From Caldisericales bacterium (GTDB lineage Bacteria > Caldisericota > Caldisericia > JAAYUI01), in NCBI GenBank assembly GCA_022707885.1, contig JAKIZT010000003.1:62001-126000 (forward strand): 64,000 nucleotides of DNA, read 5' to 3'. The notes under the pieces were generated by a model, which did no database searches, was not told where the DNA came from, and saw only the letters and a program-made list of their open reading frames with translations. Positions 4,285 through 60,000 of this stretch are shown here, piece after piece (position 1 is the first letter of the stretch; each line of letters opens with the position of its first letter). Position numbers and translations under genes: made by a program.

Positions 4285-4683
4285 TTAGCCCAAGTACTGT
4301 GACACCTTTTGAAGCAGTTGCTGTGGCCTGATTGGTTTTTCGATGAAATCGTTGACTGGAAGGAACTCCTGGTCCTTCTTCGGGTCAAATTTCATCTTCT
4401 TCTCCGATGAGACAGATGTGACCATCAGGATTGGAATATTTTTGAATTTCTTGTAGACGGAGGAATCCTCATCTGATCTGATGGCCCAAGCGACATTGAA
4501 GCCTTCAGTGTCGGTGTCCATCATGACATCGAGGATGATAAGGTCAGGGGCAAACTCAAGAAGAGTCTTGAGCCCCTGTGTGCCATTGGGGGCAGAAGAA
4601 ACTTTGTAGCCAACGGCCTCTAAGGCGATCCTCATCGCCTCGACCATATCGGTGTCATCATCAATAATAAGTATCTTCTTCAA
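4285..4683 (-). CDS. Single-domain response regulator
   Basis: A 132-residue stand-alone receiver domain with no output domain. The acidic pocket is D8-D9-D10, the phospho-acceptor is D52 (in ILDVMM), the switch residue is in MVTS and the conserved lysine in IEKP. The start is a TTG whose last bases overlap the TGA of the maturation protease gene (TTGA), with GGAGG about eight bases upstream. Such regulators act by protein-protein contact. Its place between hydrogenase maturation and the kinase suggests the pair forms one pathway tied to the hydrogenase. Confidence 0.9.
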   Translation of the reverse strand: MKKILIIDDDTDMVEAMRIALEAVGYKVSSAPNGTQGLKTLLEFAPDLIILDVMMDTDTEGFNVAWAIRSDEDSSVYKKFKNIPILMVTSVSSEKKMKFDPKKDQEFLPVNDFIEKPIRPQQLLQKVSQYLG

Positions 4684-5147
4684 TTGACTACCTCCTTGGT
4701 GAAGTCGAGAATGGCGGAATAAACGTACTCAAGGATGTTCTCCATCTGGCCTGTGACCTCTTCGGAGAGTGAAGCACCGGGGGCGATTTTTTTGGGTTCG
4801 ATCCCGATAAGCAGCATCGGGGGGAGACTGGAAATTACAGAACCCAGTTTTAGCACCTGCGGGAGACCAAGGTCATGGAGGGAGAACTCAGGGCCGTCAG
4901 GCATCTGGACGTTGTCGAGAGTAAAAGACCTCACAGAACCTGGAACAAGCCCCATCTTGGCGGCATCAATAATAACAACGCGGTCGGACTCCAGAATGTC
5001 AGGAAGGATATCAAAACCTGAAACCCCGCCGTCTTTCAGGACGACGCTTGGGGGAAGGGGCTGGTCCTTGAGAACATTGACAATATGGACACCAACCCCC
5101 TCGTCACCCAGAAGGGTGTTTCCGAGCCCGACCACGAGAGTATTCAC
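4680..5147 (-). CDS. [NiFe] hydrogenase maturation protease (HyaD/HycI family)
   Basis: A 155-residue endopeptidase that removes the C-terminal extension of the hydrogenase large subunit after nickel insertion. Family marks seen: GLGNTLLGDEGVG at the N-terminus with the metal-binding Glu, a central IIDAAKMG segment with the second acidic ligand, and FSLHDLGL with the conserved His. The start is GTG directly after the TAA of hydA (no spacer) and the gene overlaps the next by three bases. Its substrate is almost certainly the large subunit encoded immediately upstream, which carries a cleavable seven-residue tail. Confidence 0.92.
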   Translation of the reverse strand: MNTLVVGLGNTLLGDEGVGVHIVNVLKDQPLPPSVVLKDGGVSGFDILPDILESDRVVIIDAAKMGLVPGSVRSFTLDNVQMPDGPEFSLHDLGLPQVLKLGSVISSLPPMLLIGIEPKKIAPGASLSEEVTGQMENILEYVYSAILDFTKEVVN

Positions 5148-6443
5148 TTACTCAAACCTCACATTAATAAGGTGGGTGGAGCAGGAGATGCATGGGTCGT
5201 ATGCCCTGAGGAGCATCTGCAGAAGAAGGGAAACTTCCTCTTGTGATTTTCCGATGATAGTTGGAACGAGAGTTTTCATGTCTTCATTGATGTTGCGGAC
5301 GTTCTGGGTTGTCGGTATGACACAGTCAGCCCACTGGCAGATTCCGTTGGAATCATACTTGTAGCTGTGGAATAGGATTCCCCTTGGGACTTCAACAGCA
5401 CCGGCGCCTGTTCCTGCTTTTGGCTGGTATTTGTTGTTCTCTTCCTTGATTCCCTTTGTGAGCACCTTGTCGATCAGGTCAATGAGGTCGTATGCAACGT
5501 GCACAGCTTCGACAACCTGGGCCATTGTGATATTGTACGGGTTGTGGTTTGGGGCCTTGAGGTTCAGCTTTTCGGCGATTTTTTTGGCCTCTGGCCTCAA
5601 AAGGTTGTAGTTGTTGTTGAACCTTGCAAGGGCGCCAACCTGGTATGACGGGGCCTTGTGTTTGCAGAGTTTTGCAGTGTGCTTTGGATCAACTTCTTCA
5701 TTGCAGACCTGCTGGTAATTGGACGGCCTGTATGACTGGCCAAGGGAAGAGATGATGTCGCCATCATAGAATGGATACTCTTTGTCCCCGTTGGTTGGCC
5801 CAAGGGAAATGTACTCGGTTTCCCTGTAGAGTTCTGGGACCTTGATGGTTGAGAAAAGGTCTACAGTGGCCTCAATATCTGGCAATGCCTCAATAACACG
5901 CTTCTGGATTGCTTTCAGCGCGGCCGGGTCCGGGAGTTTTGAAAAGCCGTTGATTTTGAGGGTTATGGGGTGAACGTGCCTTCCAACGATTGTCTCGCTG
6001 ATATCATTGCCAAGTTTTTTGAGCTTGAGGGCGCGGACGACGACGTCTTTGTGGGACGAGGCAAGTGGGATTACCGAGCCAACACCAAGGAAATCCGGTG
6101 CGGCAAGAAAGTATGTGTGGAGAAAGTGGGACTGGATGGTTTCACCGTGAAGAACGATCTTGCGGAGATCAACGGTCTGCTCTGATGGTTCGATGGACAT
6201 TGCAGCTTCGCTTGCCCTGAGAGAAGCAAGGGCATGTCCGCAGGCGCAGATACCGCAGATTCTTGTGACGATGTCCTTTATTTCATAGTGGGCCCTTCCA
6301 ACGCAGGCGGCCTCAAAGAACCTTGGGGCTTCGACAACATTGAATTCGGCTTTCTCAACAACACCGTTGTTTGTCTTGCAGACGATGTCGCCATGGCCTT
6401 CGACCCTGGTCACATAATGAACATGGATGTCATGATCAGGCAT
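5148..6443 (-). CDS. hydA: [NiFe] hydrogenase large (alpha) subunit, group 3 type
   Basis: A 431-residue subunit that carries the Ni-Fe active site for H2 oxidation or evolution. The N-terminal metal motif is RICGICACGH (C63, C66) and the C-terminal one is DPCISCSTH (C418, C421, H424). Seven residues follow the histidine, the expected pro-peptide for the protease encoded next. A GGAGG lies before ATG 6443 and the gene overlaps hydD by 8 nt. The beta-gamma-delta-alpha gene order matches the cytosolic NADP-linked 'sulfhydrogenase' type of group 3b. No hyp maturation genes are present in the window. Confidence 0.95.
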   Translation of the reverse strand: MPDHDIHVHYVTRVEGHGDIVCKTNNGVVEKAEFNVVEAPRFFEAACVGRAHYEIKDIVTRICGICACGHALASLRASEAAMSIEPSEQTVDLRKIVLHGETIQSHFLHTYFLAAPDFLGVGSVIPLASSHKDVVVRALKLKKLGNDISETIVGRHVHPITLKINGFSKLPDPAALKAIQKRVIEALPDIEATVDLFSTIKVPELYRETEYISLGPTNGDKEYPFYDGDIISSLGQSYRPSNYQQVCNEEVDPKHTAKLCKHKAPSYQVGALARFNNNYNLLRPEAKKIAEKLNLKAPNHNPYNITMAQVVEAVHVAYDLIDLIDKVLTKGIKEENNKYQPKAGTGAGAVEVPRGILFHSYKYDSNGICQWADCVIPTTQNVRNINEDMKTLVPTIIGKSQEEVSLLLQMLLRAYDPCISCSTHLINVRFE

Positions 6444-7182
6444 GTTTTTCCTCCTTTTGGAAGGAATTGAAAATGGTCATGTATTTGCTGATGTCTTCTA
6501 TTGTAAGGCCGTGTTTTTCAAGCATCTGCTTGCATGACTCGATATTGGCTTCGGAAACGAGGCCCCTGCACCCAATGCAGGGTGAGCCAAAGGTCGGCTC
6601 GATTGCATCGCAGCCGCCCCTTGTAATTGGGCCCATGCATGGAATGCCGACCGTGAGAAGGCACTCGTTTTCCCTGAGCCTGCACTCCTGGCAGACAGGA
6701 TAGTCATGGTCTGGTGGTTTTTTACCAACGAGGAGTGCCTGGACTGTGCGCAGGAAATCCTTGCGGTCAATCGGACAGCCCGGGATGTAGCCATCAACCT
6801 TGATCACCGTGTCAATCGGACGGGCAAAGGTAGATTCAAAGGCGTCTTTCTTGTTGCCATAAACTATCTCTTTTGCCTTGTCAACCGGCATTGCATTCCT
6901 GATGGCGTTGATTCCAGCCATTCCTGAGCAAGCGCCGATTGCGATGACGAGTTTTGCTGCTTCCCTGATTTTTTTGAGCCTTGGCTCGTCCTGTTCCCTG
7001 GTTATGGAACCCTCGACGAATGCGATATCAAAGTTCCAGTCTGCCTCTGTCATTGCCTCGCGAAACTGGACAATGTCGACAAGGGCGAGAAGATCAAGGA
7101 GCTCGTCTTCGCAATTCAGGACCTGGAGCTGGCAGCCTTCGCAGCATGAAAAGTCAAAAAAAGCTATCCTGGGTTTGCTCAT
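6436..7182 (-). CDS. hydD: [NiFe] hydrogenase small (delta) subunit
   Basis: A 248-residue iron-sulfur electron-transfer subunit that pairs with the alpha subunit. The N-terminal SCCEGCQ motif (C13, C14, C17) supplies proximal-cluster ligands; IGACSGMAG and GCP motifs and a cysteine-rich C-terminus (CQECRLRENEC, GIPCMGP, CIGC) supply the rest. It lacks a Tat signal, so the enzyme is cytosolic. The start ATG at 7182 overlaps the stop of hydG (ATGA). Confidence 0.93.
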   Translation of the reverse strand: MSKPRIAFFDFSCCEGCQLQVLNCEDELLDLLALVDIVQFREAMTEADWNFDIAFVEGSITREQDEPRLKKIREAAKLVIAIGACSGMAGINAIRNAMPVDKAKEIVYGNKKDAFESTFARPIDTVIKVDGYIPGCPIDRKDFLRTVQALLVGKKPPDHDYPVCQECRLRENECLLTVGIPCMGPITRGGCDAIEPTFGSPCIGCRGLVSEANIESCKQMLEKHGLTIEDISKYMTIFNSFQKEEKHA

Positions 7183-8006
7183 AGGGCCTCCTCAAGGTGC
7201 TTGATTTGAGTGTATGTGAAGACAGGTCCGTGCTGGCAGCAATAGAGGCCATTGATCTGGCAATGACCACATTTGCCAAGGCCGCACTTCATTCTTCTTT
7301 CAAGAGATGCAAGGATGTGGCTGTCCGGGATGCCAAGGACGCCGCATTCAAGGATGACGTACTTGTACATTACCGGCGGGCCGCAAACGAGCGCGTAGGT
7401 ATTGTCAGGATTGATTTTGCCGACTTTCTTGAAGAGTGTTGTGATGACGCCCCCGTTGCCTTTCCATTCCGGAGTAGGCCTGTCAACTGTTTCAAGATAG
7501 ACGACATTCGGGTTTTTGCGCCAGCCTTCAAGTTCATCCTTGAAGAGCATGTCTGACGGTGTTTTTGCGCCGTGGATTATTGTAAACTGGCCAAAATCGG
7601 AGCGATTGTGGAAAATGTAATTGATAACAGAGCGGAGCGGGGCAAGACCAATTCCACCAGCAACTATTATAATGTCGTGACCCTTGAGCTGGTCCACCGG
7701 GAAACCATAGCCAAACGGTCCCCTGATCCCGAGCTTGTCACCAGGTTTCATGGTGTGAACGACGCCGGTGACGTCTCCAACCTTGCGGATGGTTAGATGG
7801 AAATTGTTTCCATCGGTTGGGGAAGAACAAATGGATATTGGGGCTTCGCCAACACCAAAAACCGTCATTTCTACAAACTGTCCCGGGCCATGGCCAAGGC
7901 GCTTTCCATCCGGGAGCTCGACCTCAAACATTTTCTCGGTTGGCGTGAGCTCTTTCACGGACTTGATTGTTGCAATCATTGGTTCATAAAGGTTCAGGCT
8001 TTGCAT
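7179..8006 (-). CDS. hydG: Hydrogenase FAD/NAD(P)-binding gamma subunit
   Basis: A 275-residue member of the ferredoxin-NADP reductase superfamily: an N-terminal FAD-binding beta-barrel, a nucleotide-binding fold with IVAGGIGLAPL near the middle, and a C-terminal [2Fe-2S] site (C241, C246, C249, C256/C257). It moves electrons between the iron-sulfur chain and NAD(P)H. GGGAGG lies upstream of the ATG and the gene overlaps hydB by 13 nt. The same fold occurs in dihydroorotate dehydrogenase PyrK and sulfide dehydrogenase subunits, but the operon fixes the assignment. This HydG is not the radical-SAM maturase of [FeFe] hydrogenases. Confidence 0.92.
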   Translation of the reverse strand: MQSLNLYEPMIATIKSVKELTPTEKMFEVELPDGKRLGHGPGQFVEMTVFGVGEAPISICSSPTDGNNFHLTIRKVGDVTGVVHTMKPGDKLGIRGPFGYGFPVDQLKGHDIIIVAGGIGLAPLRSVINYIFHNRSDFGQFTIIHGAKTPSDMLFKDELEGWRKNPNVVYLETVDRPTPEWKGNGGVITTLFKKVGKINPDNTYALVCGPPVMYKYVILECGVLGIPDSHILASLERRMKCGLGKCGHCQINGLYCCQHGPVFTYTQIKHLEEAL

Positions 8007-9031
8007 TCGGCCTCCCTTTTGAATATCCTGTTGGAAATTTCAACGAGGTTGATTTCTACCGGGCAGTGAACCCAGCACCTTCCGCAACCGGTGCAGAAGG
8101 TCATTGAATGTGAGTCAACATGATATTTAAATTTCCTGTGGTAGCGGTGGCGGACTCTTGCGCCCGGCTCTTCCCTGAAGTTCTCTCCGGAGCCGACGTA
8201 GGCGAAACCTGCAAGCTGGCAACCGTCCCATTTCCTTACCCTGTCACCTTTTTTCATTGAAAGGGCGAGTTCATCAGTGACATCGAAGCAGTAGCATGTC
8301 GGGCAGACAAGGACGCACTGTCCGCAGGAAAGGCATTTTTTGCCCATGTCTTCCCAGACTGGCGCTTCCCACTGGCCTTCGAGCTCAAGCGGAAGGAGCT
8401 GGGCAGGGCCAGTGAACTTTGCCGTAAAGAGTTTCTTTTTTGCTTCAAGAAGCTCGTCCTGTTTTTTAAGGTGGGTGCTGGAGGCTGGTTTGGTCTCAAT
8501 CTTTGAGATTACTTCCTTGCCTTTTTCAGTGAGAACATCCACAAGCACCTGGTCTCCTAGGTCTGTAAGGAAGATATCAAAACCATCGGTACACCTCAGG
8601 TCCATGACAGAGCTACAGTAGCAATACTGATCAGGAACGCAGTCAATACCGATTATTACGGTGTGTCCCCTTCTCTTGTTGTAGTTGTCATCCGGGTTTC
8701 CACCATTCATGATCATGTCCAGGAGTTTGATTGCCCTGATGTCGCATGGGTGGACACCAACAATTACCTGGTCTTCAAATTCGACAACCGATTCGGCTTT
8801 TGGATTTGGAGGCATATCGAATTTCATTATGCACTCTTGCTGGGGCATCAGGTACTTTTTTGGGGGGAGGATTGATCTGGTGTAGCTAAATTTTGCCTCG
8901 CCTGCATCCTTGAGCCTGTCGAATACAACGCTCTTTCCCTTGGCAACAGGGCCATAAACGGCGGGATAGAGCTTAATCAGCTCAGCGATGAAGGATTTTA
9001 CATCCTTCTTCTCCATCACACGTTGTTCCAT
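7994..9031 (-). CDS. hydB: Hydrogenase beta subunit with two [4Fe-4S] clusters
   Basis: A 345-residue electron-transfer subunit and the first gene of the hydrogenase operon. Its C-terminal half carries two ferredoxin-like cluster motifs, CLSCGQCVLVCP and CTGCGRCWVHCP. The N-terminal ~220 residues match the domain typical of HydB of sulfhydrogenases and anaerobic sulfite reductase subunit A. The ATG at 9031 follows a GAAAGGA-like ribosome site. The promoter upstream is clear. Confidence 0.92.
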   Translation of the reverse strand: MEQRVMEKKDVKSFIAELIKLYPAVYGPVAKGKSVVFDRLKDAGEAKFSYTRSILPPKKYLMPQQECIMKFDMPPNPKAESVVEFEDQVIVGVHPCDIRAIKLLDMIMNGGNPDDNYNKRRGHTVIIGIDCVPDQYCYCSSVMDLRCTDGFDIFLTDLGDQVLVDVLTEKGKEVISKIETKPASSTHLKKQDELLEAKKKLFTAKFTGPAQLLPLELEGQWEAPVWEDMGKKCLSCGQCVLVCPTCYCFDVTDELALSMKKGDRVRKWDGCQLAGFAYVGSGENFREEPGARVRHRYHRKFKYHVDSHSMTFCTGCGRCWVHCPVEINLVEISNRIFKREAECKA

Positions 9032-9063: not shown

Positions 9064-9092
9064 AGTATAAACAAATGTATTGGTTATATCAA
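9064..9092 (-). promoter_or_regulatory. Predicted sigma70 promoter of the hydrogenase operon
   Basis: Minus strand: TTGATA (9092-9087), a 17-nt spacer, TATACT (9069-9064). The implied transcript starts about 25 nt before hydB and can cover hydBGDA, the maturation protease, the response regulator and the kinase. Confidence 0.7.
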
Positions 9093-9158: not shown

Positions 9159-11012
9159 TTATGTTTCACGTGAAACATACTGACCAAGAATTTGGATGTC
9201 TGATGGAGTAACACCATCCACCCTCATGGCCTCTCCAAGGGTTTTTGGCTTGATTGCCGCAAGACGGAGACGTGCCAGTTTTGAGAGGAACATATTTCCA
9301 GCATAATCTATGTCTTCGGGGAGTGATAATTTCTCCCATCTTTCAAGATCTCTCATTCTTGTCTGCTCTCGCTGGCAATAGGCTTCAATGGCAATATCAG
9401 TCATTGCAGAAGTAACAGCCCTTCTTGATAGTGACTTGAACATGGGGGCAACAGCAATCAGTTTTGTATAATCGAAATGAGGTCTCCTGATTAGTTGCGA
9501 GAGTTTGACGGGCTCATTTATGTCACCGATGCCAATGTCCTGGAACCAGGCCTTTGTGTCCTTGTCAGGATAGTAAACCAGACCTCCTGATTCTCTTACG
9601 AATTCTGCTTTGTCTGACTCAAGTTTTAAAAGATCAGCGGACCGTTCTGGATCAAGAAGGCCGGTCTTTTTTGCGATTGGACCAAGCCTGAAGATGGCAT
9701 TATCGGCTCTCAGAGACATCCTGAATTCAACATGGGAAGGCGTTATTCTGTAAGGCTCTGTTATCCCCTTGTGTGCGAGGTCGTCAATCATTACTCCGAT
9801 GTATCCGTCCATGCGTCCCAATATGAGCGGAGGGAGTGACATGGATTTGAGTGCAGCATTTGCACCGGCAACAAGCCCAAGCGCTGCTGCCTCATCATAA
9901 CCAGTCGTTCCGTCAACTTGCCCCGCAAGGAAAAGGTTGTCGTAATGTTTTGTGGAAAGGTCAGGGTTCAGCTCGGTAGGGTCCACAAAATCATAATCAA
10001 TGGCGTATCCGGATTTTACCATCCTGACATTTGAAAGCCCCGGAAGAGTTTTGAGCGCCTCAAGCTGGTATTGGGGTGGAATACTCATGTAGAGTCCCTG
10101 AAGATAGCACTCGTTTGTGAACCTGCTCTCTGGCTCTACAAAGAAGAGGTGTTCTGTCCGGTCGGCATACCATCTGGCCTTCTCTTCAAGTGAAGGGCAA
10201 GACCTGGGACCTGTTCTTACCATCATGCCTTTGACTGATGGCGCCATATGAACGTACTTTTTGATTACATTCATGGTATTGCTGTTTGTGTGGCCAAGCC
10301 AGCTTGGAAGCTGGTCCTTGAATATCCTTGGCTCAGAGACAAGGGCTATCGGTTCAGTGTCCCCATCCTGTCTTGCCAGCTCTGAATAGTCAATTGATTT
10401 TGCATCTATTCTGGGAGTGGTGCCGGTATTGAATCTCCTGATTGGAAGCCCAAGCTCTTTTAGCTGTTCTGAAAGCCCGTTTACTGAGGGTTGTCCCATC
10501 CTTCCGCCTGGAGTGCTTGTATCAGCGTAGTGCACTTTTCCAGACATGTATGTGCCACAGGACAGAACGACAGTTTTTGAATAGAATTTTCGTCCGTCAA
10601 GAAGGACAACGCCGACAATTTTTTCGTCTTCGATCAGGAGGCTGGATACCATCCCCTGGAAGAGGGTGAGATTTTTTGTCTCCCCTATCAATTTGGCAGC
10701 CATAAGTGAATAAAAGTGTCTATCTGCCTGTATTCTTACCGATTGTACCGATGGGCCTTTGGAACGATTAAGCAACCTTATGGATGTTGCCGATTCTTCA
10801 GAAAGAATGGCTGAGGCGCCACCAAGGGCATGCAACTCGCATAAAACCTGGGTTTTACCAGGTCCACCCATTGCGGGGTTGCATGGCATGTATGCCATCT
10901 GGTCAGTATTTATTGTCAGAAGAAGTGTCTTGGCGCCAATGCGACAGGAAGCGAGAGATGCTTCCATTCCTGCATGTCCGGCACCAACCACAATAACATC
11001 GTAGTTTTCCAT
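9159..11012 (-). CDS. mnmG: tRNA uridine-5-carboxymethylaminomethyl modification enzyme MnmG
   Basis: A 617-residue FAD protein that, with MnmE, modifies U34 of tRNAs reading split codon boxes. The N-terminal Rossmann motif is GAGHAG (residues 10-15); MPCNPAMGG and the catalytic-region SCGTYMSG are present, and the C-terminal helical domain is full length. I chose the ATG at 11012, which gives the usual family length; an upstream ATG at 11072 would add 20 unrelated residues next to the tRNA gene. The ribosome site is weak. Its stop codon abuts the parS palindrome. Confidence 0.95.
   Translation of the reverse strand: MENYDVIVVGAGHAGMEASLASCRIGAKTLLLTINTDQMAYMPCNPAMGGPGKTQVLCELHALGGASAILSEESATSIRLLNRSKGPSVQSVRIQADRHFYSLMAAKLIGETKNLTLFQGMVSSLLIEDEKIVGVVLLDGRKFYSKTVVLSCGTYMSGKVHYADTSTPGGRMGQPSVNGLSEQLKELGLPIRRFNTGTTPRIDAKSIDYSELARQDGDTEPIALVSEPRIFKDQLPSWLGHTNSNTMNVIKKYVHMAPSVKGMMVRTGPRSCPSLEEKARWYADRTEHLFFVEPESRFTNECYLQGLYMSIPPQYQLEALKTLPGLSNVRMVKSGYAIDYDFVDPTELNPDLSTKHYDNLFLAGQVDGTTGYDEAAALGLVAGANAALKSMSLPPLILGRMDGYIGVMIDDLAHKGITEPYRITPSHVEFRMSLRADNAIFRLGPIAKKTGLLDPERSADLLKLESDKAEFVRESGGLVYYPDKDTKAWFQDIGIGDINEPVKLSQLIRRPHFDYTKLIAVAPMFKSLSRRAVTSAMTDIAIEAYCQREQTRMRDLERWEKLSLPEDIDYAGNMFLSKLARLRLAAIKPKTLGEAMRVDGVTPSDIQILGQYVSRET
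9162..9177. promoter_or_regulatory. parS centromere site (ParB binding), inside the 3' end of mnmG
   Basis: TGTTTCACGTGAAACA is a perfect 16-bp palindrome identical to the bacterial consensus parS site. It encodes the last residues of MnmG (V-S-R-E-T) just before the stop. ParB nucleates on such sites for chromosome segregation, and in many bacteria they lie near the origin in the mnmG-rsmG-parA-parB region. Here mnmG is present but rsmG, parA and parB are not adjacent. Confidence 0.9.
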
Positions 11013-11040
11013 TTCTCTATTATGATTGACCGCCTTGTCC

Positions 11041-11068
11041 TTGAAAATCAAGATGTTTTTCATAAACT
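11041..11068 (+). promoter_or_regulatory. Possible promoter of tRNA-Ser(UGA)
   Basis: TTGAAA (11041-11046), a 16-nt spacer, TAAACT (11063-11068). Transcription would begin close to the tRNA 5' end. The match is moderate and lies inside the region between divergent mnmG and the tRNA. Confidence 0.4.
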
Positions 11069-11076
11069 CCATTCCC

Positions 11077-11160
11077 GGAAGGATGGCCGAGCGGTCTATG
11101 GCGCTGCACTTGAAATGCAGAGGGTGAAAGCCCGCGGGGGTTCAAATCCCCCTCCTTCCG
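11077..11160 (+). tRNA. tRNA-Ser(UGA)
   Basis: The 7-bp acceptor stem is GGAAGGA/TCCTTCC with discriminator G. The anticodon loop CTTGAAA between CTGCA and TGCAG gives anticodon TGA, read as serine UCA. The long variable arm and GGTTCAAATCC T-arm are typical of tRNA-Ser. CCA is not encoded. Confidence 0.95.
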
Positions 11161-17154: not shown

Positions 17155-17555
17155 TTTATAAATATTGCGGGCCATATTTTTTCATGATGACATTTATTTA
17201 CCCATAATAACGTGTGATTTTAGGTTTATACCAAAGAGTTCAAAACAAAACCCAAACCTTTTTTACCGATCTTTAGCGCTTTTGATCCATGGCATGGGAA
17301 TTGCACATAGTGAAGGTGGCAGTGCTTAACTAGCATTGCGAATTTTGTTTATTTGATATTGATCCCAGGGCCTGTGCAGCTAATGGCAGGTTGTTTTTGG
17401 GATCGTTGGGTTTTATGGATTCATAATTTGTGTCATGGGCTCATAGTGTTGAGCTAAAAAGAGGCTTAGTGTGGACAGAGCATTATGCTTGTGTGCCGCA
17501 CAAGTGTGGTGTCGGTTGTTACCGCCACCAACCACCTCGAAAGGAGAAAGGGTTG
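17155..17555 (+). other. Long non-coding leader of the first giant protein gene
   Basis: About 400 nt with no supported gene. It starts very AT-rich and becomes mixed. There are several short hairpins (for example CTTGTG/CACAAG at 17488-17504, and GGTTG/CAACC just before the ribosome site). The final AAAGGAGAAAGG places the start codon at 17556. A reading frame in phase with the giant gene extends back to ~17430, but it lacks signal-peptide character. No known riboswitch was recognised and no convincing promoter found. Confidence 0.4.
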
Positions 17556-20500
17556 ATGAAGAGAGTAGTTACCTTGATCGTTGTGGCATTGATGTTTGCA
17601 TCCCTTGGAACCTATTTTGGGACTGCAAGAGCCGAAGAGAAGGACCTTTCCACCGGCAGAAATGCTGTTTATATTGCACAAAGGTGGGCTCCTGTCGGCT
17701 ACAACTGGAGCGCAAACAAGCTCTATGAAGACAGGACAAGGAACTTCGAAATCGGCGGAACATACACCGGCTGGGGTCGTGAAGACTATAGAATGCCGGC
17801 CTGCACCGACAATCCGGTGAACGGAGCCGTAAGGACCCACGACAACAATCTGGAAGGCCCGCTCTACAACATCCCGGCAACAGCCGCTACGGACGTTGAG
17901 CCGCGCTTCTGGTGCGAGTTCTACCTGATCGTTGACCCGGATGGACCAAAGTCCCAGGAATATGAGCATTGGTTTGCAATGATTGATTCTGGCGGAAACC
18001 TTTGGTTTGACCCGGACGGCTACTTCAATGACAGCCGCTATTATGCTTATGCTGATCCACTTGATATCCACTACAATCAGGACGACTCATCCCTCTTTGA
18101 CAGCTGCCAGAGAAACCCGAATGCCCTAGTCGACCCAACTACCGCAAATAATACCCAGGGACCGTACCCCCTTCTCCCAACAAATGAGAATGGCGATCTT
18201 AATCCTGGTTATGTTGATAACTATCGTGTCACCCCATTTGTTACCGGAACTGTTCAGAATCCAGTCCAGCTTCCGCCATCGGAAAGACTTACCGGTATGG
18301 GTTCCACTCCTATGTACTTCATGGAACCAAAAACCAATAGAGTGTTCCGTATTGGTTGGGTAGACATGGTTGACTTCCCGCTCATATATCGCTCTGCTGA
18401 TGCAAATAACCCACGCAACCGTCAGCTCAGCTGGACTGATACCACTGCCATGACGGTAGTTGGAAACACCCATAGGGAAGATGTCGCACTCACTCAGGCG
18501 TCATTCTGGAACATTGGACAGAACGAGTTCTGGGGACACCGCTATGACGATTGGGACATCAACCACAATCTTTACCGTTTCCGCGATGCTGCCGGTGGAG
18601 ACGTCGGGCCGAATGGTCCATTCTGGGTCAACAACAGTGATGCCAATACAGGCAGAAGAGACCAGAATGGCTATGCCTGGCTTGATGATCCAATCTGGGA
18701 CTACGGCGAAGAATGGCACACCGACAACGTTGGCTTTACAGCTATCCCACAGAATGATCCGAACCAGAATAATCCTGCAAGATATCAAACATACCAGCCT
18801 GGTGAGTGGATCTACAGGGGTGGTTATAACAGATCCATATATGTCAGGACTGCTGCAAACCGTAACTTTGTCATAGGGTACGACCCACTTATCCAAGTCG
18901 AGGATCAGGGTGAGGGTGATGAGAGACTTACACCAGTTTCTGTCCATGTAAATCTTGTTACTTATAACTATGCTCCATCAACTTGTCCGCGTGACAGAGG
19001 CCAATTCTCAGGAACTGGTCAGTTTGGAGTCTGGGATCCTGGCGATGACTATGATATTGGACAAATGGATAGGACCAGTGCTACAACTGGCAGTCCGGAT
19101 CCAACCAATGCTCCAAGGCCAGCATCCCCGTTCAGGCTCTCCATTGCCAACATTGGTGTTCCAGACCCAGGTGTTTCACCAACGCAAGGTGACGAGCTTC
19201 ATGCAGACAACATAAACAACCATACATTAGGCGACATAAGACTGTATGATCCATACGAGCACGTTTACCAAAAAGGTTACACCGATACCACAACAACCAG
19301 GGTTCCCAACACTCTTCCAAGGGTACAGATCGGTGACAACCGTCTTACTAATGTAAATAGCAATTCCCATCCATGGGCACTCCAGAATTATGTTAGTGAT
19401 CAGCCAAATAGACTTGGTGGCCTTTGGGTTGGAGACGTTCTGATTCTTTCCGAAGTTCTCACTGCTGTTTGCAATGACAATGATTTCTATAATCTTTCAG
19501 TCGAATCAGATCTTTGGGAAGGTGTTATACCATCCACAACCACAGCAGTCCTCAGATCACAGCTTGGTGAGATAACCGAGAGAGGCCAAACTATCAACAA
19601 GAGCACAGTTCTTGGCCCAACCGGCACAGCTTTTGCAGTCCCAGCTACAACATTCATGGATTGCTATCCAAGATCAAGACAATATCTCGGTGTTGAAATT
19701 TTCAACGACAACGGGAAAGACAATAACCTTGGAGCCCAGCACTATTCTGATATCGTTGGAACTCCACCAGCTTCTGATCTCCTCTATCCAAACAACATGT
19801 CAGATGACTATCGTCCTGGCAAAACTTGTGAGGTATTCCTTGGGGCACAGGATCCAAACCCGAACCTCTTCTCCAAGCCATGGTTCCTTGGTAGCACAAG
19901 TGATTACTATCAAAGAGGACTGATTACAAAGGATATTGGAAGAATCCTTACCAGGTTTGACAACCTTGCAGTCCCGGTCCGTTTCCTTGACACCCAGCCG
20001 GGTGGAGCAGGAACAACAAGACTATTTGGTTGTGGCAAGGGAATATATCTTGACGTAAACAATGATTATGAAATAGGTATTGGCGACAAACGTCTTGCTG
20101 ATATAACAATCAACAGGAATGCCGGGATTATTACCTATAAAGCAGGTTCTTATGTTAATGCCGGCGATGTTGATGTAAACGCTTTCGCAGGCGCAAACAA
20201 TGACCTTAATGACTTCAGAGCCATTCTTACCAATGGCCAGTATCATTGGCCAATGTTCTATGATGAATACATAATTGACCCGGAAAATTCGACAAGACTC
20301 CTCCCACCAAATGGCACCTACGACCCGGGCGAAATAATCTATGATACCAACATGCCATTCAACGGCCTTATTGATCAGGGTGTTGTTCAGCCAGGCTTCC
20401 AGAGAATGACAGCAGGCTGGATTGGCGATACATGGTATGATTGTGGATCAATCGTTCCTCCATTTGATTTCTATCTCTACACATCAGTTCCATATGGTGT

Positions 20501-23500
20501 TACCTCAGGACTCAACTGTGATTCAAGATATATGGACTGGGAAGTCATTCCTGGAGACATCAAGCTTGATGTCCAGATCGACAAAGAGCTGATGGTTGAG
20601 CAGACCTCTGACATCACAGTTTCTGTTAACCCGCCGCCAAGAGAAGGCCACTGGGTTGACAAGGGCGATCACAGATTATGGATTCCAGACGAGGCCGTTT
20701 ATGTGCTCGTTCGTGATCCAGGTGGAATAGCTGGTGGCATGTCAGACACCAATATCAATGCGCAGTACAGGGTGCTTACACCAAAGTCCCCGAAAGTTAC
20801 TTTCACAATGACTCCTTACAGGGGTTCTTGCCATCCAGAAAACTTCAAGCTTGGAAGACCACAGCAAGATGCACTCAAGGTAAGAATTCAGGCCTTCAAG
20901 GCCAACCCGGAAATTGGTCTCTTTGCAAATCGTACACTTATGGCAGATCTCATGATTGTGCCACCAGACCAGCACCCAGGATATCAGAGCCCAATCACCC
21001 AAAACTTCTTCCGTCAGGACACCATGCACTTCTATCGTGACCTTTTCTGGACAGGCGACTGGAAGAGAATGATGAACATGATTGGCAGCCACGGTGGCAA
21101 CCACTGGGGCAAGAGGTTCCCGCGTTCAGGCAAGAAGTCACCAGGACTTTATCTGACAGATGCTGACAACAAGGGATTTGATCTTGCTCCTGCGCCGCCG
21201 CTCCCAATGACTCTTTCAGAGTCTTATGATTGCTATGGCGAGAAACACTTTGAGGTCCTTCCGGAACAACTCAAGGTTGATGCAAACGTTGCCTGTATTA
21301 CCACTCTGGATCAGCGCTTCCCGAATATTATGCTTACCCTTTCAGATATCGATAATCCAAACGATGTTAATGATCCATATGGTGTTAATATTTCAGTTCC
21401 AAAAACTGACAGCCCGCTCATCGCCGTTTACAATGGCCATGGTGGCGGAGTCAACTGGCTTGCGGTTGCCGAGCTTGCAAACCCGGCAGTCCAGGGTGAA
21501 AAAATCATTATCCAGGCCAACATCGACGGAACTTATGAATATTGGTACTGGTACGAACCAGCCAACACCGATCCAAATCTTGGTCCACAGGTACCAAACG
21601 CCATTGATGCGAACGACGTCATCATTGGTCAGGAATGGACGACATTCCCGATCCAGTGCACTGATAAGGTAAAACGCACAGGCGTCAAGGTTGATGACAG
21701 GGCATCGTGGGATGATGCAGATTGCTCTTCAGCCACCAATATAGCCTGCAGGGTCAACATGCCAGAAGGCATGAAACCAATCGGCGACATAACTGGCCAG
21801 TGGGGCAACCCGCTAGGTTCAGACCATTATGGAATTATTGACGGAGCATTTGCCTGGATCGTTCAGTATGGTGTTCCAACTTATGTTACTCCATACGGTG
21901 AGCTTACCCCGTCTGATCCAGGTGGAGAATGTCTTGCGGTTATTCATCCAAAAGATGGATCAACTCATCTCAATATCCATGTTTATCTGACCAACGCAAT
22001 CTTTGACTACAACTCAACAATAGCCCACCCGGTCACTGGAAGCCCATATTTCAGGACTGATGTTCCAACTGGAATCAACCAGAACAACCCGGGTTATATA
22101 AACCTTGGTGAAGCAGTAAACGGAATCGATTACGCCGGTACCCTTGATCTTAAGGTTTACCCGCCAGACCCATATGTAAACTTCGCAGAGTGGCTCATTG
22201 TTGATAAAGCACTCATGTATTCAAACGTTAACTATACTGTTGCCTCATCTACCAATCCGGCACTTTCACAGCTTCCACCACCAGCACCACAGATTCAGCC
22301 ACCATATTGGCCAATTCTGCGCACTTCACATGGTGGATTCAGGGTATATCCTGGTGGACAAACACATACCGGAAGGGTAAGGGGCCAGAACTTCAACCAG
22401 AATGGTGGAGCTTTTGGATGGAACGCATATCCGGCAATCTGGAGTGAAGAAGGCAAGAAGAATGCAAAATCCGAGATGTTCTACAAGCTTGGAACTGAAT
22501 TCTTCCCACTCACAGATTACGGTCTATACTTCATTCTTAAAGATGGCGAAGGCAACCACCTCTCATTCAAATCTCCAACCCTCGACCGTACTATCAAGAG
22601 GATCGAAATTGTTGGACCATTTGCACGTCCAAAAGTTGTCGATGTAACAACAAACAGAGTTGTGAACTGGTACGCATACAACGGACTCCAGAATGTTCCG
22701 ATACAGTATGACTACTCAGGAAAGATCGTAATTGACGAAACCAACTGGTCATACTTCGAGCATATACCAGGTGGAAATTACATGAACTGGTCTGCTCTTA
22801 GCGATGTTGATTATGGCTCAAACGAAAACATTCGCATCAAGAGAACAGGCAAGCTCAACTATTGCTCCCTGGATAACGTTTTCGTGATTGACGAACTTAT
22901 CCCGTGGAACTCTGGAAAGATATTCATCTACGTCACCCTTGCAGATGGCACCTTCAAGATGTACCAAGATTGCTGCACTGCACCGCCGGTTGACGGAATT
23001 GATGTTAGGGCCCTTGATCTCAAGCAGACCGAAGGCGACGAGAATTATGAACCAATTGACCATATTACACTTGATTCTGGCAGAAACATGATCCAGAAGC
23101 TCTCCTTCACACTGAAGGAATATGAGCCGATGCAAGTCGAGCAGCTTTGCAATGATGCAGTCATGTATATCTGGCAGGACAGGGGCGTAAAAGATCTCCG
23201 TGACACCAAGAGCAACCTTGTAGTCGGTGCAGGCGATGGTTGGGTAACCAACCCACCAACTTCTTCAAGAGCCGAGAATTATCACACCCAGTACATTCCA
23301 GACAACGATGTCAACGGCGACAACAAGATCAAGTTCAACGATTATGAAACTGAAATTTGCGGAACTTACGACATGGTAACAAATACCTGGATGGGCGGTA
23401 TCATTGATGCTCGTACTTTCCAGCGCAATACCGGCAGATATGATTTCGAACTCTCCCAGGCAACCGGTGCAAATATCGATACAGTAGGTCTTGATTTTGG

Positions 23501-26372
23501 TGGAGAAAATGGAGTTGCTGACCCACAAGACCACATCATCTCGGACAACGAAACACTGCCAGTCTATATCACTGCCTACAAGTATGGCGATGACAACAAC
23601 GACAGATCGTTTGGGCCATGGTGGGATTTTGATGCCTACTACTCCCAGTACGATGCATCTGTTGGCCAGTACACAAGGACACGTTATAGCCACGAAGTTT
23701 ATCTTGCAGCCCAGGTTGCATTGCCAGTTGAGCCATACGATGACCTTATCGTAACCTATACACCAAACCCGCTCACAGCTGGTATAACCCCAGAGCTTGT
23801 TGATGTTAACTCGCCACTTACATTCGTTGTTAAGAATGAAAAAGGCGACCCAGTCAACCTGCTTGATGGAATTATCGACCAGTGGGGCAAGAAAGATGTT
23901 GATCCAAAAGTTGGCTGGAATTACCTCTTTAAAGATCCGCACCCAGACAACACTTATTATTATGGAAGAAATTCAATCCTCCCACAGTATTACTTCCTCA
24001 GAACAGACCTCCACAACTATGATGGAACAGATGTCAACAACCGTGAACTCTACTCATCAAGAGGAAGAGACTCATCCTACGACTGCAAAGAAACAATTCT
24101 CGAAGCATTTGAACCAATAACACCAGACTTCTCCAATGCAAAATCTGGTCTCTACATCTTCAGGGGCTTCTGCGCCAACGACAACAACATCTGGATGAAG
24201 GACGAAGATCACCCAGACAGAGATCAGTGGGAAAAAGAGCACTTGGTCAGGGTCTATATCTACACACCAGACCGCAAGCACAGAGGTTCTGTTGATGTTA
24301 AGGTTGTCAATCCACATGCCGAATATTCGGTTGTCAACATGGAAGATCCACAGCTCAGGGCTTTCACAGTCCCGGGAGAGCCGGACTTCATAATGACCGC
24401 AGCTGACAATCGCATTTATAAAGTAACAGTAACAATCAGCAACGCCCAGGGCCAGCTGGTCAAGGGTGTAACGAAGGGCGTCTCGGTCTGCGGCGGTGGC
24501 GTAAAGAATACCGCAAGGTTCACACCATTCACCACAAGACCACAGTCCTTTGATTTCCGCAACCAGACATGCGACTATGTTCCATGCTCACAGGTCACCT
24601 ACCCGCACTTTGGTTATGATTTCGTCGCTGATGGCAACATCACATGGCAAGATCAGGAACTCTACAAAGCTGGTGGATTTACACTCAGGCCAATTAACAA
24701 CAAGTGCTGGGATCGCCAGGGTGTTGGCGAAGTCTTCTACAACACAACAAATGAATACTTCAGGGACGACAAGACCTGGAGAGTTATCAACGAAGGTACA
24801 GCCGGACAGCGTGTTGAAGTACTCAACCTGCTCCTTCCACCACCAGCTTTTGGATGGGGTCTCGGTGCCATCTACAACTGGCCATATTGGGGCGGTTTCC
24901 TCTTCACAGATATCGATCGCAACGGCTCGCTTGATTACCACGATGCACTTGGTCTTGATGTGAACGCTCAGACTTCATTCTACCTCTGGGCCGAAGACCT
25001 GTTCTATGTTGGCGGACTTGTTGGAGACAACGTCTATTGCAATACCCAGGTCAAAGCAGACCTTGTAGGCTACCCACCATATTCTGACAAGACAAACCCA
25101 AGGTACATGGTCAAGAGGTTTAGGCATGGAGTAACCAACGACACAGTGTTCTTCATGGACTGGGAAGCAATTCCGGACAAGGTTGCCCAGGTTTCATACC
25201 CGAGAATCGAGCTCTTCTACGCAGAGAATGGCAACGAAGTCTCCAAGGATCTCCTCAACGTCGACAACTACGATATGGTTTACAACTACGACAACCACTT
25301 CATTGCAAGGGTTTACCCGGCATTCAAGGAAGACCTCCCGCTCAAGGATGACGGAAGGGTCTACGTCTCCGGCAACCAGGCACAGCAGTGGATATATGGA
25401 CAGACCAAAAAGTCAGAAGTTGATGACATGGCAACCGAAACCACGTTCCACTACACTCCAACCGGAACCGGCCAGTCAACAACTTTCATCTCCTATCTGG
25501 CAAAGAACAAGTGGTATTTTGCAGATCCATACCAGCTTGACAATCCAGAGTGGTATTCACTCAAGAAGATCTATCATCTTGATGTTGGCAAGGGACTTGA
25601 AGTCATGATCGCTTCTGACAACCTAGCCCCGAATGCTGCTTCAGAACTCACGATTTACGTCAAGGAACTTGGCACCGAAGCTGTTGTTCCAGAAGCAACC
25701 GTTTATGTTGAAGGCCCAGGAATACAGCAGACCTCGCTCACCACAAACGCAAAGGGCGAAGTCAGGGTAAAAGTTACTCCGAAATCACAGGGCAAGATTG
25801 TTGTCACTGCAGAGCGCGATGAATACATTGCTGGCTCCGCATGGGTCATGATCGGTAAAGACACCATCCCGCCAGTGCTGGATGTTGATCCGATCGCACC
25901 ATATGGAAACAAGACTTCCATTGATGTAACTGGAAAAACAGAGCCAGGCGTCAAGCTGACTGTTAATGGAACTTCCGCCAGGGTTGATGATTCCGGCAAG
26001 TTCACAGTCAAAATAACACTCAAGGAAGGCGTAAATCCAATTGTAGTCGAGGCAATTGATGCTGCTGGAAACAGAAGCATGAGGATACTCTCAACAATAG
26101 TCGACATCACACCACCAGCCTTCATCATCAATGGTGAGGTTGATGGAAAGATCCTTGTTGCAAAAGACCAGACAACGATTAAGCTCTCAGGAAGAGTTGA
26201 TCCAGGCTCCAAGGTCACGGTCAATGGCGCACCGGCAAAGGTCGTCTATGACATCTGGGAAGTCGAAATAACAATGGATGCAAACCTTCCAGAACTGCCA
26301 CTTTCCTTCCAGTTCATCGATGTTGCCGACAATCAGACAACACACGAAGTGAAGCTTGTAAGACAACCGTAA
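17556..26372 (+). CDS. Giant secreted surface protein (paralogue of 57026-63853)
   Basis: A predicted 2938-residue exported protein. The start ATG 17556 follows AAAGGAGAAAGG and begins a classical signal peptide that ends near TARAEE. The bulk is all-beta looking, rich in Asn, Asp, Tyr and Gly. Calcium-binding-like loops occur, such as DNDVNGDNKIKFNDYE (about 23313) and DIDRNGSLDYHD (about 24910). The C-terminus has an Ig-like carboxypeptidase-regulatory-type segment (~25600-25850) and two tandem domains like glucodextranase B/bacterial Ig repeats (~25860-26372), each with 'v.vnG....v...G.F...v.l..G.n.i.v.a.D..GN'. It aligns along its whole length with the second giant protein but has extra sequence near 18200-19450 and lacks the stalk domain. 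A surface structure or adhesin role is inferred; no enzyme motif is seen. Confidence 0.8.
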   Translation: MKRVVTLIVVALMFASLGTYFGTARAEEKDLSTGRNAVYIAQRWAPVGYNWSANKLYEDRTRNFEIGGTYTGWGREDYRMPACTDNPVNGAVRTHDNNLEGPLYNIPATAATDVEPRFWCEFYLIVDPDGPKSQEYEHWFAMIDSGGNLWFDPDGYFNDSRYYAYADPLDIHYNQDDSSLFDSCQRNPNALVDPTTANNTQGPYPLLPTNENGDLNPGYVDNYRVTPFVTGTVQNPVQLPPSERLTGMGSTPMYFMEPKTNRVFRIGWVDMVDFPLIYRSADANNPRNRQLSWTDTTAMTVVGNTHREDVALTQASFWNIGQNEFWGHRYDDWDINHNLYRFRDAAGGDVGPNGPFWVNNSDANTGRRDQNGYAWLDDPIWDYGEEWHTDNVGFTAIPQNDPNQNNPARYQTYQPGEWIYRGGYNRSIYVRTAANRNFVIGYDPLIQVEDQGEGDERLTPVSVHVNLVTYNYAPSTCPRDRGQFSGTGQFGVWDPGDDYDIGQMDRTSATTGSPDPTNAPRPASPFRLSIANIGVPDPGVSPTQGDELHADNINNHTLGDIRLYDPYEHVYQKGYTDTTTTRVPNTLPRVQIGDNRLTNVNSNSHPWALQNYVSDQPNRLGGLWVGDVLILSEVLTAVCNDNDFYNLSVESDLWEGVIPSTTTAVLRSQLGEITERGQTINKSTVLGPTGTAFAVPATTFMDCYPRSRQYLGVEIFNDNGKDNNLGAQHYSDIVGTPPASDLLYPNNMSDDYRPGKTCEVFLGAQDPNPNLFSKPWFLGSTSDYYQRGLITKDIGRILTRFDNLAVPVRFLDTQPGGAGTTRLFGCGKGIYLDVNNDYEIGIGDKRLADITINRNAGIITYKAGSYVNAGDVDVNAFAGANNDLNDFRAILTNGQYHWPMFYDEYIIDPENSTRLLPPNGTYDPGEIIYDTNMPFNGLIDQGVVQPGFQRMTAGWIGDTWYDCGSIVPPFDFYLYTSVPYGVTSGLNCDSRYMDWEVIPGDIKLDVQIDKELMVEQTSDITVSVNPPPREGHWVDKGDHRLWIPDEAVYVLVRDPGGIAGGMSDTNINAQYRVLTPKSPKVTFTMTPYRGSCHPENFKLGRPQQDALKVRIQAFKANPEIGLFANRTLMADLMIVPPDQHPGYQSPITQNFFRQDTMHFYRDLFWTGDWKRMMNMIGSHGGNHWGKRFPRSGKKSPGLYLTDADNKGFDLAPAPPLPMTLSESYDCYGEKHFEVLPEQLKVDANVACITTLDQRFPNIMLTLSDIDNPNDVNDPYGVNISVPKTDSPLIAVYNGHGGGVNWLAVAELANPAVQGEKIIIQANIDGTYEYWYWYEPANTDPNLGPQVPNAIDANDVIIGQEWTTFPIQCTDKVKRTGVKVDDRASWDDADCSSATNIACRVNMPEGMKPIGDITGQWGNPLGSDHYGIIDGAFAWIVQYGVPTYVTPYGELTPSDPGGECLAVIHPKDGSTHLNIHVYLTNAIFDYNSTIAHPVTGSPYFRTDVPTGINQNNPGYINLGEAVNGIDYAGTLDLKVYPPDPYVNFAEWLIVDKALMYSNVNYTVASSTNPALSQLPPPAPQIQPPYWPILRTSHGGFRVYPGGQTHTGRVRGQNFNQNGGAFGWNAYPAIWSEEGKKNAKSEMFYKLGTEFFPLTDYGLYFILKDGEGNHLSFKSPTLDRTIKRIEIVGPFARPKVVDVTTNRVVNWYAYNGLQNVPIQYDYSGKIVIDETNWSYFEHIPGGNYMNWSALSDVDYGSNENIRIKRTGKLNYCSLDNVFVIDELIPWNSGKIFIYVTLADGTFKMYQDCCTAPPVDGIDVRALDLKQTEGDENYEPIDHITLDSGRNMIQKLSFTLKEYEPMQVEQLCNDAVMYIWQDRGVKDLRDTKSNLVVGAGDGWVTNPPTSSRAENYHTQYIPDNDVNGDNKIKFNDYETEICGTYDMVTNTWMGGIIDARTFQRNTGRYDFELSQATGANIDTVGLDFGGENGVADPQDHIISDNETLPVYITAYKYGDDNNDRSFGPWWDFDAYYSQYDASVGQYTRTRYSHEVYLAAQVALPVEPYDDLIVTYTPNPLTAGITPELVDVNSPLTFVVKNEKGDPVNLLDGIIDQWGKKDVDPKVGWNYLFKDPHPDNTYYYGRNSILPQYYFLRTDLHNYDGTDVNNRELYSSRGRDSSYDCKETILEAFEPITPDFSNAKSGLYIFRGFCANDNNIWMKDEDHPDRDQWEKEHLVRVYIYTPDRKHRGSVDVKVVNPHAEYSVVNMEDPQLRAFTVPGEPDFIMTAADNRIYKVTVTISNAQGQLVKGVTKGVSVCGGGVKNTARFTPFTTRPQSFDFRNQTCDYVPCSQVTYPHFGYDFVADGNITWQDQELYKAGGFTLRPINNKCWDRQGVGEVFYNTTNEYFRDDKTWRVINEGTAGQRVEVLNLLLPPPAFGWGLGAIYNWPYWGGFLFTDIDRNGSLDYHDALGLDVNAQTSFYLWAEDLFYVGGLVGDNVYCNTQVKADLVGYPPYSDKTNPRYMVKRFRHGVTNDTVFFMDWEAIPDKVAQVSYPRIELFYAENGNEVSKDLLNVDNYDMVYNYDNHFIARVYPAFKEDLPLKDDGRVYVSGNQAQQWIYGQTKKSEVDDMATETTFHYTPTGTGQSTTFISYLAKNKWYFADPYQLDNPEWYSLKKIYHLDVGKGLEVMIASDNLAPNAASELTIYVKELGTEAVVPEATVYVEGPGIQQTSLTTNAKGEVRVKVTPKSQGKIVVTAERDEYIAGSAWVMIGKDTIPPVLDVDPIAPYGNKTSIDVTGKTEPGVKLTVNGTSARVDDSGKFTVKITLKEGVNPIVVEAIDAAGNRSMRILSTIVDITPPAFIINGEVDGKILVAKDQTTIKLSGRVDPGSKVTVNGAPAKVVYDIWEVEITMDANLPELPLSFQFIDVADNQTTHEVKLVRQP

Positions 26373-56955: not shown

Positions 56956-56984
56956 TTGAACTTGACCCCAAGATTTCGTGTATT
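56956..56984 (+). promoter_or_regulatory. Possible promoter of the second giant gene
   Basis: TTGAAC (56956-56961), 17-nt spacer, TGTATT (56979-56984). Moderate match; transcript leader ~35 nt. Confidence 0.4.
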
Positions 56985-57025
56985 TGAAGCAAATCAGCCA
57001 TGAATGCATCGAAAGGAGTTTCAAG

Positions 57026-60000
57026 ATGAGAAAGCTCTTGGCTACAATGCTAACGCTCGCGGTGGCGCTCACCGTGGTTCCGTTTTTTGGCGGAATGCCA
57101 CAGGCTTATGCCGAAACAAAAAACATACTTTTTGCGGTAGTCAGATGGTCTCCGCTTGGCCAGGACAGGAGCGGCCAGCCACTCTCCGGCAGGGTCGTTC
57201 CATGGACTTCCGGCGACGTTTCCACCTGGTGGGGCAGGCAGCAGTTTCCGATGCCGTCCCAGCCAAGGTACTGGTCGGAAGTTTATCTTACCGTTATTGG
57301 TGCAGGCGGCCAGTCCACCGAAAAAGACAAGATGAACTGCATCCTGGACTCAAACGGCAATATCTGGTTTGACCCTGATGGCTATTTCCACAATGCTGCC
57401 GAAAGAGCAAGACCAGACCCGCCAGGCCAGTGCTACGACTACAACTTCAAGACAGACAACACCCCTGCCAACAATACGCAAGGCCCATACAGGGTCGGCG
57501 ACTATGCAAACTTTTTCCACAACAAGGGTTACTGGTTCACGCCGATCAGCCACCAGCATGGCCCATACACCTTCCCGCGCAATTTTTCAGGAAGGCTGTT
57601 TAAGCTGGGGCAAGCTGCGCTTCCTGGCAACGGAATGGCCCTTGTCATGTCAGAGACCTTCCTTGCCTCTTGCGACCCGAACACCTCCTACAACCTCTCG
57701 GTTGAAACTGACATGTGGGAAGGCGTCAATCCGGCCGTTACCGCCGCTTCGATCTTTGACCCAGAGAACCCGACACTCAGGAGATCGCAGAGAATCCAGA
57801 AATCAACCGTGCTTGGCCCGACTGGCCTGGATTTCCAGGTGCCGGCAACCACTTTCTTCAATGTGAAGCCGTCCTACAGGAGCTACATAGGCATTGAGAT
57901 CTTCAGGGATTCTGGTGAAAACAACATCAACAACCCGCAAGGCCAGTGCTTTGCACAAAACCTTTCCGATGACTACAAGGCGTTGTATGCCTGCGAAGAC
58001 TTCATTGGCGCCTCAAATTCCGGAGTGAATGACTCCGATGCTGGCCTCCCACTCAAACCCTTCCCGGCAAGTTTCAGGTATTACGACAGCGGCGGAACCG
58101 GTTTTGGCTGTGGCGAGCCGATATATGACAACCTTAACACTGCCCAGGACCCATTCATGAATGATATCGTCAACCCTGGTGACAAGCGTATGACCACTGT
58201 AACATTCAGTGTTGGCGGCGCCATTGTCACCTATGAGGCTGGCTCGTATGTTTCAGCCGGTGATGTCGATAATGGCTATATTATTCGTCCATTCACAAAC
58301 GTTGGCTGGTTTGATGCCAACAATAACAACGAATTTGAAGAGGGTGAATGGATTTATCAGGACAATGATCTTTCCAACTCCGTAACTGCCGGTGATATTC
58401 GTCTGACAGTGGTCAACAAAAATGGCAACACCTATCAGTGTGGAACGGTTGTTGCCGGCCCGGAGCTTTACATAAGGAGCTATCCGGTTTCCGGTATAAC
58501 TGTTGGAAGGTGTGGTAATTTCCGCTTCATGGACATGGAAGTCCTGCCGGGTGTTGCACCTGTGCAGGTGAATGTTTCGAGACCGTTCAAGGTCGAGCAG
58601 ACCTCGGAAGTCAACCTGACAATGAATCCTGCCCCGGACGAGGGCAGAATAGCCTACATAGTGCTGACCGATGCCTCAGGCCAGAGAAATGTTGCCGGAA
58701 CAATAACCAAGGACCGCCCGAGGGCAACTGTCCAGATAACTCCCTATGAGGGCTCTTGTGATGAATTTGGCAGGATCCACCCGTATCTTATAGAGGTTTA
58801 TTATGAAAAGGGCACTGGCAGACCCCAGGACATTGGTTGGGGAGGCCCGCCGGATGGAACTTACGGGTACTGGGTTGTTCCTTCTCCGCAGATACTTAAC
58901 AACACCATCATTCCGAACAACTATGACTGCTATCTGGCAAAAGAGTTCACGGTGGAGCCCGAAGACATGTATTTTGACTGCAGCACCGTCTGCCTTACAA
59001 ACATCTCGACCCGCTACCCGAACTTTGTTTTGACCCTCAAGGATTTTGACAACCCGTACGATGTGAATGACCTCAATGGAGTCAATATCTCAACCACAGC
59101 TTCTGCAGGTAACATCATTGCATACTACAACTGCACGGGGGCCGGCATCGACTGGATGTTTACTGCTGGCACCGGCGCAAACAGGTATATCGTTCAGGTC
59201 AACAAGGATGGCACGTACTATTACTGGGCCTGGAACGACAACCAGAGCCCGACACCAGGCATTGGTGCCGTTGGCGCACTCGACCAGGAAGACACTGTTG
59301 TCGGGCCGACGCAGGGCAATATCAATTCAGGCAGTCTTGTTGACATGGATTGCTCTGGAAGATTTGCAGAATGCGATATCTGTGGCCAGGGCTTCGAAAA
59401 AATGGGTGTTGTGACCAAAGGCGACACATGGGGACAGTTTGACGGTGTCAACCTCCCGGTCATCGAAACCTATGGCGTGCCGTGCTTTGTTACCACATAC
59501 AAGACGACCCCGTGGGCTGATCCGGGTGGAAGCATCATGGTGGCCTGCTGGCCGCCAGACCGCACCTCCAGCCTGAATGTAAGGGTGCACACTGATAATG
59601 CTCTCTGGGACTACAACAGCACAATCACCCACCCACCATATTTTATCACCTCGCCTGCCAAGGGCACTGATTATTGCGGTGTCCACGTCATTCCACCAAC
59701 TGCCTCCGGTGGAGGTGGTGGTGGAGGCGGAGGCGGTGGTGGGGGTGGAGGAGGCGGTGGAGGTGGAGGTGGTGGCTCCGGTGGTTATGGAGACATAAAC
59801 TTCGTCGAATTTACCGCAATTGACCACGCCCTTCAGTACTCCAGCGTCAACTACACCTCTGGATCTGGTGCCTTATCCAGGATGCCACCTCCAGCCGCGC
59901 AGATACAGTCGCCGTATGACCCCGTCCTTTCGAATCTTGTCAGGGAGTTCAGGGCTTATCCTGGCGGACAGACACACCCGATCAGGGTGCAAGGTGGAAT

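Follow-up and report, generated by a model that had tools for sequence, protein, structure and literature searches.

An exact parS site, very probably the chromosomal centromere, forms the last codons of mnmG in a Caldisericales bacterium

What is a perfect ParB-binding palindrome doing at the very end of a protein-coding gene, some 19 kb from the par genes? We addressed this question in a 64,000-nucleotide stretch of a Caldisericales genome (hereafter the window; contig C33:62001-126000), in which the 3' end of mnmG coincides with a candidate parS (C33:71162). The gene and the site are as follows:

9159-11072, minus strand: mnmG (gidA), 637 aa; NCBIfam TIGR00136 mnmG_gidA, 621.5 bits, above the cut-off
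9162-9177, no strand assigned: parS, exact consensus, within a 20-bp palindrome at 9160-9179

The initial annotation had proposed that an exact parS doubles as V-S-R-E-T codons before the mnmG stop, and our analysis confirmed this. Window positions 9162-9177 read TGTTTCACGTGAAACA, the 16-bp parS consensus palindrome with 0 mismatches, which together with its flanks forms the 20-bp perfect palindrome TATGTTTCACGTGAAACATA (9160-9179). The gene ends GGT CAG TAT GTT TCA CGT GAA ACA TAA (...G-Q-Y-V-S-R-E-T-stop), such that parS comprises the last T of the Tyr codon TAT and the final five sense codons, GTT to ACA, and is directly abutted by the TAA stop (9159-9161). Shuffled versions of the window gave a mean of 0.40 matches at up to three mismatches, and an exact 16-mer match is expected by arithmetic only ~6e-4 times in a 1.94-Mb genome of this base composition. 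Across the assembly (1.94 Mb, 90% complete), a search for further copies, as the annotation had suggested, found 9162-9177 to be the sole site with 0-1 mismatches. Two parS-like sites with 2 mismatches (contigs C12 and C76) were taken as background because a reversed control pattern matches similarly often (one match). The assembly comprises 88 contigs and is 90% complete, and further parS copies could therefore be absent from it.

The segregation genes and dnaA lie on the same contig as the site, outside the window, together with a hisS-like gene:

C33:44161-45456: dnaA
C33:50301-51065: parA, just upstream of parB
C33:51055-51888: parB, likely GTG start at 51055; HTH_ParB, E 8e-35

Measured from the ends of these genes, parS is 19.3 kb away from parB and 25.7 kb away from dnaA. 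In cumulative GC skew, which was profiled on the 174-kb contig C33 only and is locally noisy and affected by gene strand, all bases together gave a local minimum at ~20 kb, where the curve turns upward, and non-coding bases alone gave a minimum at ~40 kb, beside dnaA. The two minima bracket the dnaA region and, by these local measures, place parS within ~50 kb of the likely origin. The suggestion that the site marks an origin-proximal region, which presupposed a ParB in the genome, is thus borne out by the presence of parA, parB and dnaA on the contig and by the local skew minimum in the dnaA region. dnaA also lies 15-17 kb from parS in two relatives, G008 and G016.

Between mnmG and the par genes lies a set of hydrogenase genes, all on the same strand as mnmG:

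7994-9031, minus strand: hydrogenase beta-like subunit (sulfhydrogenase HydB/ShyB-like; also AsrA-like), E 5e-69, below the equivalog cut-off
7179-8006, minus strand: hydrogenase gamma-like subunit (HydG/ShyC/AsrB-like), profile match
6436-7182, minus strand: hydrogenase delta-like small subunit (HydD-like), profile match
5148-6443, minus strand: [NiFe] hydrogenase alpha-like large subunit (HydA/ShyA-like), profile match
4680-5147, minus strand: hydrogenase maturation protease, TIGR00072, above the cut-off
9064-9092, minus strand: weakly supported promoter-like hexamers (TTGATA-17-TATACT), located after mnmG/parS and ahead of the hydrogenase operon

These genes resemble a HydBGDA-like [NiFe] sulfhydrogenase operon with its maturation protease, the subunit models being strong but below equivalog cut-offs. 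The beta-like gene, the first past mnmG, is conserved in that place in the relatives G002 and G004. The initial annotation had the operon standing where rsmG and the par genes would be; this holds for the immediate neighbour of mnmG and for rsmG, which is on a different contig (C5), but parAB remains nearby, on the opposite side of the operon and 19-20 kb away from parS. The promoter-like sequence sits ~70 bp past parS, ahead of the operon, in a region with 5 such matches against 3.2 expected by chance, and ParB loaded at parS might influence it. On the other side of mnmG, a tRNA gene (11077-11160, plus strand) lies directly upstream and divergent. The window also holds two very large open reading frames of unassigned role, at 17430-26372 (plus strand, 2980 aa) and 56978-63853 (plus strand, 2291 aa), the first of which has relatives in the same neighbourhood in G002 and G004.

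We then considered which DNA the encoded ParB would be expected to read. Its nearest PDB structures are Spo0J/ParB chains, including B. subtilis Spo0J (6sdk, E 1.4e-51), and the GERR, ENIQR and GHGR motifs are present. Aligned with Spo0J and Noc, the protein has an Arg corresponding to Caulobacter R173 and a Gly corresponding to G201 (KSRPY, EGHGR) and lacks the Noc lysines at 179 and 184. R173 and G201 are reported to be absolutely conserved in ParB orthologs and altered in Noc, and the residues at 173, 179, 184 and 201 determine specificity for parS versus NBS (PMC7383237). A Noc-binding site (NBS), or a site for another ParB-like regulator in place of a chromosomal centromere, would accord with the 233.6 bits that this ParB scores against the Noc model TIGR04285; that score nevertheless falls short of the 315-bit cut-off, the key residues are of the parS type and not the Q173 K179 K184 R201 set of Noc, the DNA is an exact parS and not an NBS, and parA adjoins parB, making such a role extremely unlikely.

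From the sequence, 9162-9177 instead very probably serves a standard ParABS segregation system as its chromosomal parS, and is almost certainly functional as a place near the origin where ParB nucleates. The product of the parB gene 19 kb away would bind the palindrome as a dimer, close as a CTP clamp and slide onto neighbouring DNA; ParA would then draw the ParB-DNA complexes apart, and ParB, which usually also loads SMC, may do so here. The newly replicated origin region would thereby be segregated first. With no other parS copy found, centromere function probably rests entirely on this one site.

To what extent the site is held in place was assessed by a conservation search of 101 genomes; among named genomes, MnmG matched only distant records (37-38% identity). 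In the bacterium's own family (f1), the exact in-frame site recurs in G002 and G004, the only other assemblies in which mnmG is present (88% and 65% MnmG identity, respectively), with two extra codons after parS in G004. Hydrogenase genes follow mnmG in all three genomes, and in G002 the gene order from parB to mnmG is unchanged, with parB 19.4 kb away. Six codons in a row, Y-V-S-R-E-T, are identical in all three f1 mnmG genes, the longest such run (the next longest is 3) against a background in which the same codon is used by all three at 100 of 384 shared residues (26%). Families f5 (5/5 genomes) and f6 (1/1) carry an exact parS 5-35 nt past the mnmG stop, including one genome (G024) with parS and no ParB match, which is 85% complete and possibly missing ParB. 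Neither ParB nor parS was found in the five f3 genomes (G006, G010, G014, G018 and G022; four of them 96-100% complete), a family that thus seems to have lost ParABS. parS is thus conserved at the mnmG 3' end in f1, f5 and f6, and co-absent with ParB in f3. In f2, parS, where seen, is near parAB, and mnmG is elsewhere. In f4 genomes (for example, G011, G015, G019 and G026), the ParB-like proteins are mostly or exclusively divergent (E 1e-7 to 1e-9), and sites were degenerate or not found, with no exact consensus parS; these genomes possibly contain an altered ParB-site pair.

The same comparison bears on whether the match arose by chance, or whether a V-S-R-E-T peptide is kept for MnmG function and the DNA has no role. 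The site is translated and other MnmG tails do end in VSRET, as such a reading would have it. Against it, the codons and not just the residues are invariant, the f5 and f6 sites are exact yet lie outside the open reading frame, relatives that lack the site have MnmG tails that do not end in VSRET, and the chance expectation given above is small; we therefore give it almost no credence. In an MnmG tree, f1, f3, f5 and f6 group together, with weak support (81/65), and the simplest account is therefore a single ancestral placement of parS at the mnmG 3' end followed by loss in f3. The most likely reason for parS occupying the last codons of mnmG is that it originally sat at the stop codon of that gene, and the f1 reading frame would have come to run through this stop-adjacent site as a V-S-R-E-T tail, a direction of change that we infer.

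In four of the six f5 and f6 genomes, parS takes a further form, as the exact centre of long perfect palindromes directly after mnmG:

L081 (G012), ~9863-9924: 62-bp palindrome
L084 (G020): 52-bp palindrome
L082/L083 (G016): 42-bp palindrome
L086 (G024): 34-bp palindrome

RNA folding z-scores of these palindromes range from -4.8 to -12, indicating strong hairpins, and some have U-rich 3' sequence. The arms are unrelated between the four genomes and the 16-bp core is invariant. One further clear case appeared among the other sites examined, in an unrelated genome, where parS centres a 40-bp perfect palindrome (G064, L106:10670-10685). We read the long palindromes as predicted terminator hairpins built around parS; a parS-terminator hybrid or a cruciform-prone centromere is possible. 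Such structures raise the question of whether the palindrome acts chiefly at the RNA level, as a (bidirectional) mnmG terminator hairpin to which the parS match is secondary. The placement of parS at the hairpin apex, the folding scores and the convergent next genes all lend themselves to this idea; however, the arms vary around an invariant core, and the presence of the exact core follows that of ParB from family to family. At the window site, the palindrome is only 20 bp, the predicted RNA fold is weak (z -2.6), no intrinsic terminator (GC-rich stem plus T run) was called, and Rfam matched only the tRNA beyond mnmG. A terminator role in relatives would in any case be additional to ParB binding rather than an alternative, and we consider a mainly RNA function of the site very improbable, retaining parS as the preferred reading.

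Does the position recur more widely? By hand count, ~26 genomes outside the phylum carry a parS (up to 1 mismatch), and in 6 of these the site falls in the last mnmG codons or within 100 nt of the stop (G056, G060, G062, G064, G071 and G097), with four more having it just upstream of or within mnmG (G070, G072, G085 and G096). A search of 386 genomes for parS followed by TRA, which selects sites before a stop codon and so gives existence rather than frequency, matched 16 genomes, many of them beside mnmG. In-frame MnmG C-termini elsewhere read DVSRETSL* (G056, L112), IVSRET* (G106, L128) and YVSRETVS* (G267, L125), so that at least three unrelated families have an mnmG with parS-encoded VSRET at its end. 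In G053 (L088:4893-4908), it is parB itself whose final codons consist of a parS with 1 mismatch (DVSRET*). Two of the reading frames through parS are open and the third is interrupted by a TGA stop, so that meeting VSRET repeatedly is unremarkable in itself; what is mildly surprising is the repeated position at the mnmG stop. Within the open-access literature on parS with mnmG or gidA, a scope that did not take in the main comparative parS survey, we found no description of this recurrent position. That unrelated families share this position suggests that it is a favoured one. A broader proposal, which we consider doubtful, is that the bacterial centromere has a favoured and perhaps ancient place in the mnmG stop region: parS would have remained there through changes in the flanking genes, in the distance to the par genes and in coding status, because this origin-proximal junction is well suited to ParB loading. 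Equally tentative is its corollary that the site would take different forms by lineage, as VSRET codons, as the apex of a terminator-like hairpin or as plain intergenic sequence.

Compared with known systems, the locus shares with the chromosomal ParABS of B. subtilis (Spo0J), Caulobacter and P. aeruginosa the 16-bp consensus, parS-type ParB residues, parA-parB adjacency and origin proximity, but here the one parS found occupies the end of mnmG, 19 kb away from parAB, and not a place within or beside the par operon. In P. aeruginosa, 9 of 10 parS sites are predicted within coding sequences and one oriC-proximal site is enough (PMC4368675), and Caulobacter parS sites lie in essential or high-fitness-cost genes (PMC5815017). 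ParB sites likewise double as codons in those species, whereas here the site occupies the extreme 3' end of mnmG, a place conserved across the family. The number of parS sites varies down to one, with Xanthomonas campestris cited as a single-parS species (PMC7333895); one site likewise appears to suffice in the present bacterium, although its lineage is uncultured and its single status hinges on a 90% complete draft. Intragenic, origin-proximal and even single parS sites are already known, and the finding is therefore ordinary in kind. For this uncultured lineage, the site would provide a centromere and an origin marker; parS has kept its place at the mnmG 3' end even though rsmG and parAB no longer adjoin that gene.
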